10,682 nt of DNA, taken from assembly GCA_016285335.1 (NCBI GenBank), contig JAEEQO010000093.1, positions 1 to 10,682 of the forward strand, written 5' to 3'. Both the position numbers and the translations under genes were made by a program. The first letter of the stretch is position 1. Each line of letters starts with the position of its first letter. This document shows, one piece after another, positions 1,234 through 7,680 of this stretch. The notes below the pieces were generated by a model that was not told the origin of the DNA, made no database searches, and was given only the letters and a program-made list of their open reading frames with translations. The stretch comes from Victivallales bacterium (GTDB taxonomy: Bacteria; Verrucomicrobiota; Lentisphaeria; Victivallales; UBA1829).

Positions 1234-3078
1234 TCAGTTGTCGAGGATGACTTTGTAGGTGTAGTTGAGCTCGATCCTGCCGGAGGCTGGCACGGTGACT
1301 TCCCACACCAGTTTCGCCTTCTGGTTCCGCGTCCGGGTTTCCGTCAGGAGCGTCACATTCTTCGGATCGCCGCCGGCTTGGATCAGTTCGCCGAAGAAGA
1401 CGGATTCGACGGATATTCTGACATCCTTCAGGCCACGGTTCACAAGCACGATCTGCGCGGTAACGTCCGGGTAGCGGTATCTGAGTTCGGAGAGGCCTTT
1501 GTTTTCCGTATAATACCGGTCCCGGTTGCCGCTTTCGATCTGGGTCATGGCGCCGGAAACGGACATGGATTTCGTGATTTTGATCGTGGCAGGGTCGCCG
1601 GAGCCGAACCATGTGCCGGTGCTCTGGCCGAGGACCTCGCCGTTGCGCTCGATCTCGTACGGCGCGGTGGTCAGCGCGAAATCGAACGGATTGCGGAAAC
1701 GGATGCAATCCCACGGCGTCGTGTCGCCGGATGCCTCGCCGAAGGAGAATTTCTTGTCCATCGGAGCGGTCCAGGTGGTGATCTCCTCGAAATCCGCGGA
1801 ACCGGCCGCGACCGGCAGCTGCAGGACGTCGCCTTTCTTCATGGTGAGCTTTCCGGCGGACTTGTACTGCATGCTGTCCATCCCGGACGCGCTCCACAGC
1901 GAGGGCCGGTTGACTGTGGCCTGGACATCGTCGTAGTCGGGCGCGAAATTGGAGAAGACCGACTGGCTCATCACGTTGCCCGCGACGCCGGATCGCAGAT
2001 AGGAGGGCGAGTTCGGGTTGGCGAGGTTGTTCAGGAAATTCTGCAGCGTCATGCCCTTCGAGAGAGCGGAGAGCGAGGAAGCGAAGGTCATGTTCGGGAA
2101 GCCGGAAATGAGCTCGACCTCGACATTTTCGAAGTCTTCGAGGTCGTTCAGAATCGTGGCGGACGCATTGATCGCGAGTTTGCCGTTGTCGGCGAGGTCG
2201 ACACGATAGAACGGCGACCAGGTAACGCCGTCGGAAAGATAGCGCATCCGGACAGGACCGAGGTGGGTCTTCGGCGCTTCAATGACCTGGACTTCCTCCG
2301 TCACAGTCATTTTCGGGACGGGCGTCTTGCCGTCGGACATGCTCGCCGCCCGGATCCTCGCCACGTCGTCCTGCCGGACCGTGATGTAGTCGCCGTCTTC
2401 GGTCTGAATCGTGAGGAAGCCCGCGCCGAACGGCGATTTGCGAGCGACGGGGAGCGAGGCGGACGAGGAATAGCGGATGGAGGACGAGGAGGACAGGTAC
2501 GCGGACAGCGAATCGACGGTCTCGCCGGACTGAGGCTGTTCTTCCGTCTTCGGCTTCCGGTTGCCGACCACGACGCCGGACAGCTCAGGACCGTCCTTCA
2601 GCTTCAGCGTGACCTGTTTCCACTCGTACACGTCGGTCATGCTGGACCAGTCGGGACGGTAGCCCGGCGCGTCGTTGTCCGCGGGGGACTGTCCGGTCAC
2701 GACGCGTTCGCGGGTGGTGCGGCGGACGGTCGTGTCCGCCGGGTCGAACCACAGGGTGCCGTGCCGGGGCGTGACCATGGGCTTCAGGACCAGCGGCTCG
2801 CTCCAGTCGCGGGCGGCGATCTGCCGCGTGACGAACCCGAATCCGTTCTTGAAGAGCTGGAGCTTCACGACCGGGGCGTTGTCCGGCTCCTCGGATAGTT
2901 TCGAACCGACGGCTTTTGTCCCGGCGGGACCCGCCTTGCCGTCCGCGGACGCAGTCTGTTTTGCGCGGAACGGATTGCAGCGGAATTTGCCGCAGCGGAA
3001 CGAGAGGAAAGCGAAAGCGGCCGCGGCTATGGCGATGATGATCGCCGCGCAGATCAGGAATGTCAGGATTTTTTTCAT
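1234..3078 (-). CDS. Membrane-anchored DUF4139-like protein of unknown function
   Basis: A 614-residue protein. It has a lysine start (MKK) and one hydrophobic helix (about residues 5-26), so it is most likely anchored in the inner membrane with its bulk outside the cytoplasm; an uncleaved signal is more likely than a lipobox. Residues 68-100 (VVKLQLFKNGFGFVTRQI) resemble the N-terminal beta region of DUF4139/DUF4140-type proteins. Residues 274-325 match the DUF4139 core pattern (RYLSDGVTWSPFYRVDL, then ILNDLEDFENVEVELISG), and the C-terminal 540-610 is a beta-strand series ending in an ELNYTYKV strand. A serine-rich stretch is at 195-208. I chose the ATG at 3078 because AGGAGA (3091-3086) stands 7 nt upstream; the frame stays open to 3150 but without an ATG and ribosome site. 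No enzymatic residues are recognisable and the cellular role is not known. It has its own predicted promoter and a terminator-like hairpin downstream. Confidence 0.75.
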   Translation of the reverse strand: MKKILTFLICAAIIIAIAAAAFAFLSFRCGKFRCNPFRAKQTASADGKAGPAGTKAVGSKLSEEPDNAPVVKLQLFKNGFGFVTRQIAARDWSEPLVLKPMVTPRHGTLWFDPADTTVRRTTRERVVTGQSPADNDAPGYRPDWSSMTDVYEWKQVTLKLKDGPELSGVVVGNRKPKTEEQPQSGETVDSLSAYLSSSSSIRYSSSASLPVARKSPFGAGFLTIQTEDGDYITVRQDDVARIRAASMSDGKTPVPKMTVTEEVQVIEAPKTHLGPVRMRYLSDGVTWSPFYRVDLADNGKLAINASATILNDLEDFENVEVELISGFPNMTFASSLSALSKGMTLQNFLNNLANPNSPSYLRSGVAGNVMSQSVFSNFAPDYDDVQATVNRPSLWSASGMDSMQYKSAGKLTMKKGDVLQLPVAAGSADFEEITTWTAPMDKKFSFGEASGDTTPWDCIRFRNPFDFALTTAPYEIERNGEVLGQSTGTWFGSGDPATIKITKSMSVSGAMTQIESGNRDRYYTENKGLSELRYRYPDVTAQIVLVNRGLKDVRISVESVFFGELIQAGGDPKNVTLLTETRTRNQKAKLVWEVTVPASGRIELNYTYKVILDN

Positions 3079-3146
3079 GGCGTGGTCTCCTGTGATTCGA
3101 GGTGAAGTTGCCGGAAAGGCTGAAAGGATGAAGACGTTTTTCAGTA

Positions 3147-3175
3147 ACAATACATCGTCTTTTCCGTATTTTCAA
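3147..3175 (-). promoter_or_regulatory. Predicted sigma70-type promoter for the DUF4139-like gene
   Basis: On the minus strand there is TTGAAA (3175-3170), a 17-bp spacer and TATTGT (3152-3147, 4/6 match). This predicts a start near 3140 and a leader of about 60 nt before the ATG at 3078. The 177-nt gap 3079-3255 is AT-richer than the flanking genes and holds no other supported feature apart from a weak hairpin at 3218-3239. Confidence 0.5.
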
Positions 3176-3255: not shown

Positions 3256-3858
3256 CTATGCCGACATCATACGGTAACGCGTCTCGATCCAGCCGGAAAT
3301 GCGGTTTAGCGTGGTCTCGTCGACCTCCGGCCAGGGCGCGGCGGCATCGACGGCGCAGCGGAAAAGCGGCGCGGCGAGCTCCGGGAACGGCACCACGCCG
3401 GACAGCATGCCGTGTTCGCGGAGGACGGCGAGGCGGGCGAGCATGAGCGGGATTTGAGGAGAGAGCGTCTGTTCCATGCGCGTGAGCATCACGGAAAACG
3501 CCTGCCAGGCGAGCGGCATTTCGAGCATGGGCTGGGCGCGGCGGAGCGTTTCGGCGGCAAACGAGCATGCGGCGAGGTAGCAGTCCATGGACTCCGCGAG
3601 GCCGTCGTGGGCGGCCGTAAGGTCCAGGGAGACGAGCGACGGCATGGAATCCGCACGGCGGGACGGGCGGAACTCGAGGAGAAACTCGCGGAAGACGCCC
3701 GCGGTCGGGAACTGCTTTTTTCCGATGGCGCGGGCGCCCTTCAGCACGAAGTCGAGGCGGCCGTGGTCGGCGCTGATCCCGGCGACGACGAGGCTGGTGT
3801 CGCGGAACGGCGTCTTGCGGAGGATCATGTACCGGGTCTTGAAGGTCCCCGAGCTCAT
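3256..3858 (-). CDS. recO: DNA repair protein RecO (short, zinc-motif-less)
   Basis: RecO binds DNA and SSB and, with RecR, loads RecA on gapped DNA in the RecFOR recombination pathway. The first ~70 residues match the RecO OB-fold: YMILRKTPFRDTSLVV then HGRLDFVLKGARAIGKK, the latter corresponding to the conserved T--HG-----KGARR segment. A helical region follows (80-150). The protein is 200 residues; typical RecO is about 240. It lacks the Cys4 zinc site found in the C-terminal half of many RecO proteins: only C170 is near the expected place. Its ATG overlaps the TGA of the upstream rlmN-ankyrin frame by 4 nt (ATGA), and no good ribosome site precedes it, which suggests translational coupling. 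It is the last gene of the predicted three-gene operon. Confidence 0.82.
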   Translation of the reverse strand: MSSGTFKTRYMILRKTPFRDTSLVVAGISADHGRLDFVLKGARAIGKKQFPTAGVFREFLLEFRPSRRADSMPSLVSLDLTAAHDGLAESMDCYLAACSFAAETLRRAQPMLEMPLAWQAFSVMLTRMEQTLSPQIPLMLARLAVLREHGMLSGVVPFPELAAPLFRCAVDAAAPWPEVDETTLNRISGWIETRYRMMSA

Positions 3859-6026
3859 TGTTCCATGGCTTTTTCGAGGTAATTGATCGCCTCGCGCGAA
3901 CGGGCATAGGCGACGGGCCGTTTTCCCGCGTGGTCGATCTCGTGCGGGCTGGCGCCGTGTTCCACCAGGTACTGTATGATCTCCATGTTCCCTGTCTCGG
4001 CGGCCCAGAAGAGCGGCTTCTTGCCGTCCTCGATGACGCCGTTGCGGGCGAGGAGTTCGTGGAATCCTTCGATGTTGGCGATTTTCAACGTCTTGTAGAT
4101 GCGGTTCACGCTCGAATTCAGCGGCAGTTCCCGTTCCACCAGCGCCCGGACGATCTTCATATTCCCGGCGAAAATGGCGTGCTTCATGGCCGCAAGGCCG
4201 ATGGCGGTGGCCTCGTTGTAGCGGTTGAAGACGGTGTATTCGATCTCGACGGGTCCGGCGCTGATCCCCTGGTTCCCGGCGAACTTCTCGATGCGGTCGA
4301 GCAGATAGAGCGCGGTATCGGTGTTGCCGTAGTCGATGGCGAGGAAGAGCGGGGTGTCGCCCTTGCTGGTGAACGAGAAATCCGGCGCGCCGTGTTCGTG
4401 GAGATATTTCACGATGTCGAGTGAGGACTGCTTCGCCATGGCGGCAAACATCACGACATTGCGGTCCATGTCGTCGCGCTTGTCGAGCTTCGCGCCCGCG
4501 TCGGTCAGAACCTTCACGTTCTGAAGCATCCCGAGGCGGGCGGCCTCCATGACGGGCGTCTTGCCGGCGCGGCCTTCGGCATTCACGTCGGCTCCCGCGA
4601 CGATGAGCGTGCGCAGGATCGCGGGATCGGGTTCGCCGGCGGCGTAATGAATGGCGCGGACGCCGTTTTCATCGGCGGCTTCCGGATCGGCGTGGGATGC
4701 GAGAAGCGCGGAAACGCGAGGTGCGTCGGAGAGCGCCACGGCCATCATGAGCGGAGTGCGGCCGGTCTCCGGGTCGAAGAAATTCGGGTCGGTGACGGAA
4801 AGCGCGTCATAGAGAGGGCCGAGGTCTTCTTCGGGGTTGTAGACCTCGGCGACGAGCTCGCGCTGGGCGTCGGAAAGCGTCTTCGGGTGCGAGGTCGAGG
4901 AGAAAAGGGAACAGGACGCGGCGGAAAGGAGCGTCAGAACGGCGGCGAAAAGCGTGACGGCTTTGCCCGCGGCACGTTTTTTCGAGCTGGCGCGGAGCTG
5001 GCCGCAGGCGGCGGTGGCGGAAGCGCCCTTTTCCACGCGGACCGTGACCGGCACATGCAACGTCTTCAGCGCGTTTTCGAACTGCTTGACGGCCTCGCGC
5101 GAGGGGCGTTCGAACGCGCCGCGCGCCTTGTTGTACGGGATGAGGTTGACCTTGGCGTTCGCGTCCGCGGCGAGGCGGGCGAACTTGCGCGCCATTTCCG
5201 GGGAATCGTTGATGCCGGCGAGGAGGACGTATTCGATGGTGAGCAGACGGCCCGTGGCCTCGCGGTGCGCCTGGCACGCGGCGAGGATCTCGCGGATGTC
5301 GCGGCGGAATTTCGTGGGGATGAGGAGAGCGCGCGTCTTATCGTCCGGGGCATGGAGCGAAAGCGCGAGGTTCCACTGCTTGCGGAGCTCGGTGAGCGCC
5401 TTGATGCCGGGCGTCCAGCCGCTGGTGGAGATGGTCACGCGGCGCTGGGCGAGAGCAACGCCTTCGGGATTCGTGATCACGTTCAGCGCGGCGACGAGGT
5501 TGTCGAAGTTCAGCAGCGGTTCGCCGATGCCCATCATGACCACGTTGTCCGGGGCCTGGCCGAGCTTGCGGCAGAGCAGGAAATACTGCTCGATGATCTC
5601 GCCCGCGGAGAGGTTGCGCATGAGGCCGTCCGCGCCGCTGGAGCAGAAGACGCAGGAAACCGGGCAGCCGACCTGCGAGCTCAGGCAGAACGTCATGCGT
5701 CCGTCCTCGGCGGGAATGCGGGCGCACTCGACCGTTTCGCCGTCGTGAAGCCGGAGCAGATACTTCGCGGAACCGTCGTCGGCGGGGTATTCCGCCTCGA
5801 TTTCGACGGAAGCGCACAGGAACGCCTGCGAAAGCGCGTCCTTCGCGGCGGCGGAAAGATTGGTCATGAGCGCGGGATCGACGATCCATTTTTTGACGAC
5901 CCAGTCGTACACCTGGGCGGCGCGGTATGCGGGCTGTCCGGCGGCTTTCAGCGCCGCGGCGATCTCCTCTTTCGAGGCGGACGCCAGGAAGGGTTTCGCA
6001 TCATTCATAGTCGTATTCGTCGTCAT
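3855..6026 (-). CDS. rlmN: RlmN 23S rRNA/tRNA A2503/A37 C2-methyltransferase fused in frame to an ankyrin-repeat lipoprotein-like domain
   Basis: One 723-codon frame. Residues 1-~350 are a complete RlmN, the radical-SAM enzyme that methylates C2 of adenosine 2503 in 23S rRNA and A37 in some tRNAs. The CX3CX2C iron-sulphur motif is C121, C125 and C128. The resolving cysteine is C114 (FCLSSQVGC), and the methyl-carrying cysteine is C341 in AACGQL. MGIGEPLLN (165-173), RRVTISTSGW (195-204) and SLHAP (223-227) are family landmarks. After CGQL comes a basic patch (KKR, 349-351), a hydrophobic stretch (356-369) and SAASC with C372, which together look like a lipoprotein signal. Ankyrin repeats run from about 422 to 720 (TGRTPLMMAV, AGKTPVMEAARLG, KKPLFWAAETGNMEIIQYL). 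Normal RlmN is about 350-390 residues. The ATG at 6026 has AAAGGAG 7 nt upstream and overlaps the preceding gene by 26 nt. A true fusion, hidden internal start or sequence/slippage effect are all possible. The RlmN call is very secure; the one-protein reading is not. Confidence 0.85.
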   Translation of the reverse strand: MTTNTTMNDAKPFLASASKEEIAAALKAAGQPAYRAAQVYDWVVKKWIVDPALMTNLSAAAKDALSQAFLCASVEIEAEYPADDGSAKYLLRLHDGETVECARIPAEDGRMTFCLSSQVGCPVSCVFCSSGADGLMRNLSAGEIIEQYFLLCRKLGQAPDNVVMMGIGEPLLNFDNLVAALNVITNPEGVALAQRRVTISTSGWTPGIKALTELRKQWNLALSLHAPDDKTRALLIPTKFRRDIREILAACQAHREATGRLLTIEYVLLAGINDSPEMARKFARLAADANAKVNLIPYNKARGAFERPSREAVKQFENALKTLHVPVTVRVEKGASATAACGQLRASSKKRAAGKAVTLFAAVLTLLSAASCSLFSSTSHPKTLSDAQRELVAEVYNPEEDLGPLYDALSVTDPNFFDPETGRTPLMMAVALSDAPRVSALLASHADPEAADENGVRAIHYAAGEPDPAILRTLIVAGADVNAEGRAGKTPVMEAARLGMLQNVKVLTDAGAKLDKRDDMDRNVVMFAAMAKQSSLDIVKYLHEHGAPDFSFTSKGDTPLFLAIDYGNTDTALYLLDRIEKFAGNQGISAGPVEIEYTVFNRYNEATAIGLAAMKHAIFAGNMKIVRALVERELPLNSSVNRIYKTLKIANIEGFHELLARNGVIEDGKKPLFWAAETGNMEIIQYLVEHGASPHEIDHAGKRPVAYARSREAINYLEKAMEQ
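4911..4991 (-). other. Internal lipoprotein-signal-like segment inside the rlmN-ankyrin frame
   Basis: Codons 346-372 encode a positively charged start (KKRAAGK), an apolar core (AVTLFAAVLTLL) and SAASC ending in C372. This is the n-h-lipobox order of a signal peptidase II substrate, but it is embedded after a cytoplasmic enzyme. The -3 residue is Ala rather than the usual Leu, so the lipobox is acceptable but not ideal. No ATG lies in this frame nearby. The closest upstream start-type codon is GTG for V331 (5036-5034), without a ribosome site. If the frame is translated whole, the segment could act as an internal transmembrane helix with RlmN inside and the ankyrin repeats outside. Confidence 0.5.
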
Positions 6027-7680
6027 CGGAAAGCTCCTTTTTGAGTGAAACGCCTTTGTAGATGTAAAGGTGCTCGTGCCTGTATTCGCAGTCGTAGAGA
6101 CGGGTCCAGGTACGCGAGTTGTGCGAAGGGACGTCCGCCGTCAGGACATAGGCGGGATCGACGTCCGCGGGGATCTTGTCGTGGGCGAGCGTGCGGACCG
6201 GGAGGCCGATGTAGCATCCCTCGGAGTACAGCCCCATGATCGCCGGGTCCTTGTAGATCGTCATGGCGGGCATGTCAGTCGCGGCGGCGCCCTCCGGCAC
6301 GGCATCCTTTTCCAGTGCGGACCGGACGCCCGAAGCGAACTGTTCCTTGCTCCGGTCCGTGCTCCGGACGGGATTCACCACCGCCCAGAACAGCAGCATG
6401 AACGACACGAACACGAACAGGTAGGTCATCCAGACGGGACGGCGCAGCCGGATCAGCAGGATCGCGGCAGCCGCCGAGGCGAGAGAAAGCACCACTTCGA
6501 AAAGCATCAGCAGGGAAACGGCGGGCTTTTCCGCGGGCAGCTCGACCCCCACCGGGATTTTTGAGAAGACGTCCTGCGGCAGCAGCAGATAGGCGGCCGC
6601 CGCGGCGCCGAGCACAAGGGCGGTCACGGCCATGACCGTGAAGAGCGCGAAGAACTTCCCCGCGTAACGCCGCACCAGGATCCAGTAGTTGCAGGCGACA
6701 AGCGCGGCGGCGAGGGGCAGCAGATAGAAGAAATCGCGCGACCGGGTCTGCGGATTGAACCAGATCAGGAGACTGAGCACGACGAAGAGGATCCGGTGAA
6801 ACTTGATGATAAGCGGCGTGCGCTCGATGGCGATCAGGGCCGGGCAGAACGGCGCCCACAGCATCAGCGTCCACGGGAAGAACCGGACGGCGGCGTCAAA
6901 CGGACGGACCGCGATATCCTGAATATATCGCAGAACGCGGAAATCGGGTGCTTCCGGGGGCGGAGCGGGATTCGACGCCAGCCAGTTCTGGATCGGCGTC
7001 AGCCAGGCGAAGAAGAACACCGCCGCGATCAGAATCGCCGCAGGCAGTCCCGGCTTGCGGAGCTTCGTCCAAACGGTGAACGGGCGCTGCTGGAACGCCA
7101 GGGGCACGAGGAAATAGACGACCGCCGTGAGGCCGTTGGAGTAGTACGCCAGTCCGGCGAACAGTCCGACGCAAAGCCAGGCCGCATTCCAGTTCGACCG
7201 GACGAACCCGACATAGAACCAAAGCATCCAGCCGCCGTAGACGATCAGGGCGGAGAGCAGCTGCGGATAGCCTTCCGGGGCCTTCGACCCGACCAGGATC
7301 GTGGACAGAACGATCGCGGCCGCAGCAGCGCCCGCCTGACGGTCCGCCGAACGTCCGCAGACCAGCCCCGTCAGCAGCGCCAGCAGCCCCAGCGGCAGCA
7401 CGGACATGAAACGCAGGGAGAATTCGAGCGGAAGCCCGCAGTCGAGCAGCAGGCGCACCAGCGCCGGATACAGCGGGAAGACACCGTTCGGCAGGGTCCC
7501 GTGCACGGTCACAAGCGTATTTCGCCCGCTGAACTCGCAGGCTGCCGCGGCGTACTCGCCTTCCGTGGAATACAGCTCGTTCAACCCGATCTGCATAAAC
7601 GGGAAGCAGAGCAGGAACACGGCGGCGATCAGCAGCACGAGCCAGGGGACTGCCGGCTGTTTTTCTTCAAAAATGGCCAT
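6001..7680 (-). CDS. GT-C (PMT/ArnT-like) membrane glycosyltransferase
   Basis: A 559-residue polytopic membrane protein with about 10-12 hydrophobic segments and a hydrophilic C-terminal part (about 440-559) likely facing the periplasm. The N-terminal helix followed by GLNELYSTEGEYAAAA (32-47) matches the first-loop acidic pattern (DE--Y) of PMT/ArnT family transferases. These move sugars from polyprenyl-phosphate donors onto lipid, protein or glycan acceptors on the outer face of the inner membrane. The C-terminus is strongly acidic (SDDDEYDYE). The donor and acceptor cannot be read from the sequence. It is the first gene of a predicted operon; its last 26 nt overlap the start of rlmN. The ATG at 7680 has no Shine-Dalgarno match. 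Instead a small hairpin plus U6 directly precedes it, so translation may be weak or regulated. Confidence 0.75.
   Translation of the reverse strand: MAIFEEKQPAVPWLVLLIAAVFLLCFPFMQIGLNELYSTEGEYAAAACEFSGRNTLVTVHGTLPNGVFPLYPALVRLLLDCGLPLEFSLRFMSVLPLGLLALLTGLVCGRSADRQAGAAAAAIVLSTILVGSKAPEGYPQLLSALIVYGGWMLWFYVGFVRSNWNAAWLCVGLFAGLAYYSNGLTAVVYFLVPLAFQQRPFTVWTKLRKPGLPAAILIAAVFFFAWLTPIQNWLASNPAPPPEAPDFRVLRYIQDIAVRPFDAAVRFFPWTLMLWAPFCPALIAIERTPLIIKFHRILFVVLSLLIWFNPQTRSRDFFYLLPLAAALVACNYWILVRRYAGKFFALFTVMAVTALVLGAAAAAYLLLPQDVFSKIPVGVELPAEKPAVSLLMLFEVVLSLASAAAAILLIRLRRPVWMTYLFVFVSFMLLFWAVVNPVRSTDRSKEQFASGVRSALEKDAVPEGAAATDMPAMTIYKDPAIMGLYSEGCYIGLPVRTLAHDKIPADVDPAYVLTADVPSHNSRTWTRLYDCEYRHEHLYIYKGVSLKKELSDDDEYDYE

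Follow-up and report, generated by a model that had tools for sequence, protein, structure and literature searches.

A conserved RlmN–ankyrin fusion in Victivallales with an internal lipoprotein-type signal, possibly a processed polyprotein

RlmN is a dual-specificity methyltransferase acting on A2503 of 23S rRNA and A37 of tRNA, represented by the family model TIGR00048 and by solved structures from E. coli (3rfa) and S. thermophilus (6fz6). In a contig of a Victivallales bacterium (JAEEQO010000093.1; the window, by which we mean the whole stretch of 10,682 nucleotides that was analyzed), one open reading frame (ORF) of 723 residues shares with this family the full-length domain, the CX3CX2C motif, both catalytic cysteines and a score above the cut-off of the model. 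Unlike RlmN, the encoded protein does not end at the enzyme's C-terminus: an internal lipoprotein-type signal follows, and after it about 350 more residues, which hold an ankyrin domain. Fusion of operon neighbors is common; the unusual part is a soluble enzyme ahead of a retained lipoprotein signal. A comparable case is FbcH of Bradyrhizobium japonicum, in which cytochromes b and c1 are reportedly made as one chain that is cut at the internal signal of c1, although our literature search gave no confirmation. FbcH is likewise said to hold two neighboring proteins in one frame, parted at an internal export signal, but both of its halves are membrane or periplasmic respiratory subunits and the cut is made by ordinary signal peptidase. 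The protein described here instead begins with a soluble RNA enzyme and has a lipoprotein-type site, and the two proteins are not homologous. The open-licence PubMed Central literature, judged by title, yielded no report of an RlmN–ankyrin or RlmN–lipoprotein fusion, nor of an internal lipobox.

The fused ORF lies at 3855–6026 on the minus strand. An earlier note, made from the DNA sequence alone, had given this interval without a strand; the plus-strand frame over it is interrupted by a stop. A search of 5.8 billion proteins returned 1591 matches, of which 120 were listed, and 57 of those listed carry the RlmN–ankyrin junction, down to 56% identity. Most are near full length (48 proteins, 82–95% identity), four are more distant (P0052, P0054, P0055 and P0057, 56–63%), and five are partial or odd-ended (P0049, P0050, P0051, P0053 and P0056). 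The odd ends of P0049 and P0053, which include an unusual N-terminus and an additional PF01968 domain, perhaps reflect chimeric contigs. Some sources already label family members plain RlmN or ankyrin protein. In an alignment of the 57 proteins with that of the window, the uninterrupted frame from RlmN to ankyrin that the note had described recurs, with the same junction and an invariant C372, in 58 of 58 sequences, which goes beyond chance.

A whole-protein search of genome loci found 21, of which 13 (L001–L013) are fused and eight encode plain RlmN at 33–38% identity. The fused architecture that the note had suggested seeking in relatives was found in 57 listed proteins and 13 genomes. Where the records of the fused genomes state an affiliation, they are Lentisphaeria, Lentisphaerae or Victivallales bins, the others being given just as "uncultured bacterium"; several are named after rumen samples, and the lineage is one of uncultured gut bacteria. 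Each of the 13 genomes has exactly one RlmN match (E ≤ 1e-10), which is the fusion, and the fused domain is therefore the only RlmN detected there.

The first half of the protein (residues 9–351; 4974–6002, minus strand) matches TIGR00048 with 326.9 bits, above the cut-off of 290, whereas the Cfr model TIGR04432 gives 217 bits, far under its cut-off of 550; we therefore class it as RlmN and not Cfr. C114, C121, C125 and C128 are kept in all 56 alignment rows that span them (the other two of the 58 are cut there), and C341 in all 58. We take the CX3CX2C cluster and the two catalytic cysteines to have the roles that they have in E. coli RlmN. The best solved-structure matches of this half are likewise RlmN structures, 6fz6 (E 1.8e-68) and 3rf9, and Foldseek superposes it on 6fz6 with a template modeling (TM) score of 0.91 over the target. 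Judging by the full conservation and the single copy, the first half should carry out normal RlmN chemistry.

The second half (residues 373–723; 3858–4910, minus strand) comprises a linker and an ankyrin domain. Ankyrin models match residues ~407–711, with Ank_2 at 121.9 bits against a cut-off of 27.3, and from rank 12 downward the Foldseek hits (50 shown) consist mostly of ankyrin proteins, designed ones among them. This half is well conserved among the fusions, mean identity per 20-residue block being mostly 0.76–0.96. An AlphaFold2 model of the fused protein, built from 51 sequences, has a mean predicted local distance difference test (pLDDT) score of 83, with both halves mostly confident; weak stretches occur in the ankyrin half at 586–601 and 642–654, and the junction (351–381) falls under 50. 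The predicted TM score (pTM) is 0.51, and no fixed arrangement of the two halves is therefore predicted.

The likely source of the fusion is visible in sister lineages. RlmN matches occur in 185 of 197 genomes in the same class, including the 13 with the fusion. We inspected the end of RlmN in 49 of these 185, made up of the fused 13, another 17 loci and 19 fetched regions, and judged the other genomes by frame lengths alone, among the matches listed. The closest unfused relatives, 21 genomes, have RlmN proteins of 60–70% identity. Their RlmN stops ~10–21 residues past the CGQL motif, and the next gene encodes a separate ankyrin protein with a lipoprotein-like signal at the ordinary position. 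When the fused ankyrin half was compared with each whole genome, its best match adjoined rlmN in 20 of the 21; in the remaining one (G100), two contigs have ankyrin matches at their ends, and one of these matches adjoins rlmN. Three more distant genomes (G093–G095) have weak ankyrin matches only, elsewhere in the genome.

The stand-alone ankyrin lipoprotein of these sister Lentisphaerota resembles the fused half in following rlmN and, in the nearest relatives, in preceding recO. It differs in having its own start and lipobox and, in clear cases, a ribosome-binding site, and its best-match stretches are only 29–46% identical to the fused half. Stop-to-start spacing was taken from clear rows only (10 of the 21 were unclear or missed): the lipoprotein start lies at −4 relative to the rlmN stop (ATGA) in six of the 21 pairs, at −13 in three, at +1 in one and at +2 in one. 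In the clear cases the lipoprotein is in another frame than rlmN, behind a purine-rich ribosome-binding site, and from that arrangement the fusion needed a frame change that removed stop and start together. All 24 loci compared (13 fused, 11 unfused) share one gene order (glycosyltransferase-like gene, rlmN, ankyrin), and recO comes next after ankyrin in 13 of 13 fused and four of 11 unfused loci. One genome (G102) carries two unfused rlmN–ankyrin pairs, on contigs C3 and C243, reflecting a duplication or a mixed bin.

A tree of 44 RlmN domains (L039, L062–L065, L070 and L071 left out) places its 16 fused rows in one group, with support 95/77, nested among rows with adjacent genes. A single origin of the fusion is recovered in 93% of 200 bootstrap trees, and the four tree labels need three changes, the minimum possible. 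Most likely, the sequences suggest, the fusion was made once in an ancestor of the lineage and has been kept since; because the support of the fork is moderate, a second origin for P0055 and P0057, though unlikely, keeps a small probability. Twenty further regions of the class were fetched, chosen partly for long frames and partly as near relatives, and the 19 that could be read out (L061 gave none) contain no second fusion of this kind. G027 alone among them has a long C-terminal tail on RlmN, 280 aa and Pro/Arg-rich by eye.

It is nearly certain that the fused architecture is real and conserved and that it arose by in-frame fusion of formerly separate, adjacent rlmN and ankyrin lipoprotein genes. 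An assembly or sequencing error that deleted a stop codon, which the unfused neighbors in sister genomes might seem to favor, is refuted by the presence of the fusion in 57 other proteins and 13 separate genomes. The earlier note had counted separate rlmN and ankyrin lipoprotein genes in close relatives, together with raw reads showing an indel or substitution at the junction, against the fusion. Such genes do exist in near relatives, but they show how it originated and not that it is an error, since many separate assemblies carry it.

Between the two halves lies a segment that resembles a lipoprotein signal (residues 349–372; 4911–4982, minus strand), consisting of K349, K350, R351 and K355, then 16 uncharged residues and C372. 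This cysteine and those of the RlmN half all stand at the positions that the note had given. C372 is invariant in all 58 aligned fusions, while residues 370, 373 and 374 vary. The stretch after CGQL has two to four Lys or Arg residues, and no Asp or Glu occurs between C341 and C372 in any of the 58. From the last charged residue to C372 there are 16 residues in 50 of 58 (range 15–22), and the segment before C372 is the top hydropathy window of the entire fused protein. The distance from C341 to C372 ranges from 30 to 34 residues, differing by whole codons; the reading frame has therefore been held through the junction. Such a hydrophobic tail is found in none of the 63 non-fused matches scanned (P0058–P0120, among the 120 listed of 1591). 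The position before the cysteine (−1) is Ser, Ala or Gly in 58 of 58; a lipobox usually has a small residue there, and Leu, Val or Ile at −3.

Enzymes that could act on such a signal were detected in the fused genomes: 12 of the 13 have LspA, 12 have Lgt, and all 13 have a site-2 protease of family M50. Taken together, these features suggest that the internal signal is probably still in use, and most likely the second half reaches the envelope as a lipoprotein, which also appears to be the fate of its unfused counterpart. Residues 373–723 would be extracytoplasmic if the signal works.

We therefore favor a processed polyprotein, in which the internal signal is lipidated and cut, parting a cytoplasmic RlmN from an envelope-anchored ankyrin lipoprotein; we infer the cut and give this reading a probability of roughly 0.55. 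RlmN would fold in the cytoplasm while leaving the ribosome, after which the signal would insert with its basic side in and the ankyrin part would be moved across the membrane. Lgt would lipidate C372 and Lsp would cut just before it, giving a lipid-anchored ankyrin protein outside and, inside, an RlmN that ends in a short hydrophobic stretch. This stretch may then be trimmed by a site-2 protease, freeing the enzyme; in E. coli, the M50-type protease RseP clears remnant signal peptides (PMC7728848, citing Saito 2011). The gain would be a fixed 1:1 output of two proteins from genes that were already co-directional neighbors. The odds are about even for the fuller statement, that this is a natural polyprotein whose Lgt/Lsp-processed signal stands behind a folded cytoplasmic domain of 345 residues and which is the sole source of RlmN for a whole lineage.

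The signal-like segment is internal, and not N-terminal as in bacterial lipoproteins; a conserved lipobox cysteine behind a basic and hydrophobic segment is present in 58 of 58. Several points weigh against processing. We are aware of no case in which a lipoprotein signal follows a folded cytoplasmic domain of 345 residues. Position −3 is Leu or Val in only three of 58 and mostly Ala, and A-x-S also suits the −3/−1 rule of ordinary signal peptidase. No LspA was detected in G011 and no Lgt in G002, among the 13 fused genomes, perhaps because these assemblies are incomplete. Finally, both the cut product and the translocation of the ankyrin part are deduced from sequence.

The same segment could instead act as a lasting anchor, transmembrane or lipidated, at the inner face of the membrane, leaving an uncut RlmN tethered there with its ankyrin domain permanently outside and possibly tying RNA modification to the envelope. 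The continuous conserved frame agrees with this, as do the basic residues, which stand solely N-terminal of the hydrophobic run and suit an N-in/C-out orientation. However, a run of 16 residues, as in 50 of 58, is short for a lasting transmembrane helix by the usual length, and a plain anchor would not require an invariant C372. Moreover, the catalytic C341 lies just 14 residues from the hydrophobic run, where tethering may hinder access to 23S rRNA and tRNA. We regard this main rival as possible but unlikely. Nor do we consider it at all probable that the signal is a relic and the whole chain cytoplasmic, with the ankyrin part now serving RlmN as a module that binds partners. Protein binding is a common role of ankyrin domains and this half stays well conserved, but a signal that had lost its use would hardly retain, in 58 of 58 sequences, an invariant cysteine, a basic flank and a hydrophobic run free of charges.

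Two proteins might also be made from the one frame if translation of the lipoprotein began at an internal codon in the last part of rlmN, either in place of the fusion or in addition to it. Separate production is the ancestral state, and among 14 DNA sequences around the junction the best candidate columns have GTG at Val325 (11 of 14) and Val327 (10 of 14); a canonical start codon occurs between C341 and C372 in 10. However, no start codon is common to all 14, and four (the window, L005, L007 and L008) have none between these cysteines. Val325 and Val327 are unremarkable, because six other invariant Val columns are equally rich in GTG (11–12 of 13). Synonymous identity is not raised at residues 301–380, with just 10 invariant columns within 341–380. 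A scan from −60 to +135 nt of Val325 found no common Shine-Dalgarno (SD)-like motif at a usable distance; GAGG at −42 in nine of 14 is too distant, and lone downstream SD-like motifs are scattered over four. Furthermore, in the absence of a stop, ribosomes completing RlmN must read through regardless. We consider an internal start improbable.

A programmed frameshift that would release RlmN alone was rejected as well, since no frame-shifted stop is conserved in the 14 sequences. In the +1 frame a TGA lies 23–24 codons past C341 in nine and 8, 58, 82 or 84 codons past it in five; in the other frame the first stop comes 13 to 374 codons past C341, and L003 has none. In sum, we found in these sequences neither a conserved internal start nor a conserved ribosome-binding site or frameshift stop by which two proteins could be made. 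Among the three readings that the note had left side by side, the precursor cut at C372 is thus best supported, given the invariance of C372 and a hydrophobic run of signal-peptide length; the membrane-tethered enzyme keeps the lesser probability stated above; and the undetected start is disfavored by the lack of a common start codon (four of 14 having none) and of a common ribosome-binding motif.

The genes on either side overlap the fusion as the note had described. Upstream, a 559-aa membrane glycosyltransferase-like protein (6001–7680, minus strand; PF13231 at 23.9 bits, below the cut-off of 26.1) overlaps rlmN by 26 nt when translation is counted from the first ATG. An alternative in-frame ATG at 6008 would cut this overlap to 8 nt, and relatives P0026 and P0041 are recorded from the equivalent start. 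The intervening N-terminus (6008–6026), which lies within this overlap, is Thr-rich and varies in length among relatives; translation may really begin at the ATG at 6008. Downstream, a recO-like gene (3256–3858, minus strand) overlaps by the 4 nt of an ATGA; it scores 28 bits for RecO_N, over the cut-off of 27, and 28.8 bits for TIGR00613, under the cut-off of 48.7. In the window, recO is followed by genes for a rhomboid protease and a DUF4139-like protein (122–1069 and 1234–3150, minus strand). Neither has a match in the 13 fused and 11 unfused related loci, several of which are short there, and the rhomboid protease, having no conserved link to the fusion, was rejected as the cutting enzyme. 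The gene neighborhood gives no hint of a binding partner for the ankyrin lipoprotein.

A separate observation concerns the genome G097 (L036, L082 2423–6611 and other contigs), one of the 21 closest unfused relatives, in which in-frame TAG codons interrupt the glycosyltransferase-like gene (two), rlmN (one) and the ankyrin lipoprotein (two, one of them inside the signal peptide). In a 1.15-Mb sample of this genome, 57 aligned stretches (22,838 codons) contain 31 in-frame TAG against three TAA and 10 TGA; L106 and L165 account for nine of the 10 TGA, within weak, antisense-looking matches, and L165 also for two of the TAG. A reverse control, G104, gave one TAG, two TAA and two TGA in 18,862 codons. 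In G097, TAG appears to be read as a sense codon, with no one amino acid dominating. No tRNA with a CTA anticodon is among the 21 tRNAs of the sample.

If the fused protein is processed, lipoprotein signals can function deep within a protein, and a bacterium can depend on lipoprotein processing for the normal form of its only RlmN. Prediction tools that consider the N-terminus only would overlook such lipoproteins. If it is not processed, the lineage would have a membrane-bound RlmN, linking ribosome and tRNA modification to the envelope.

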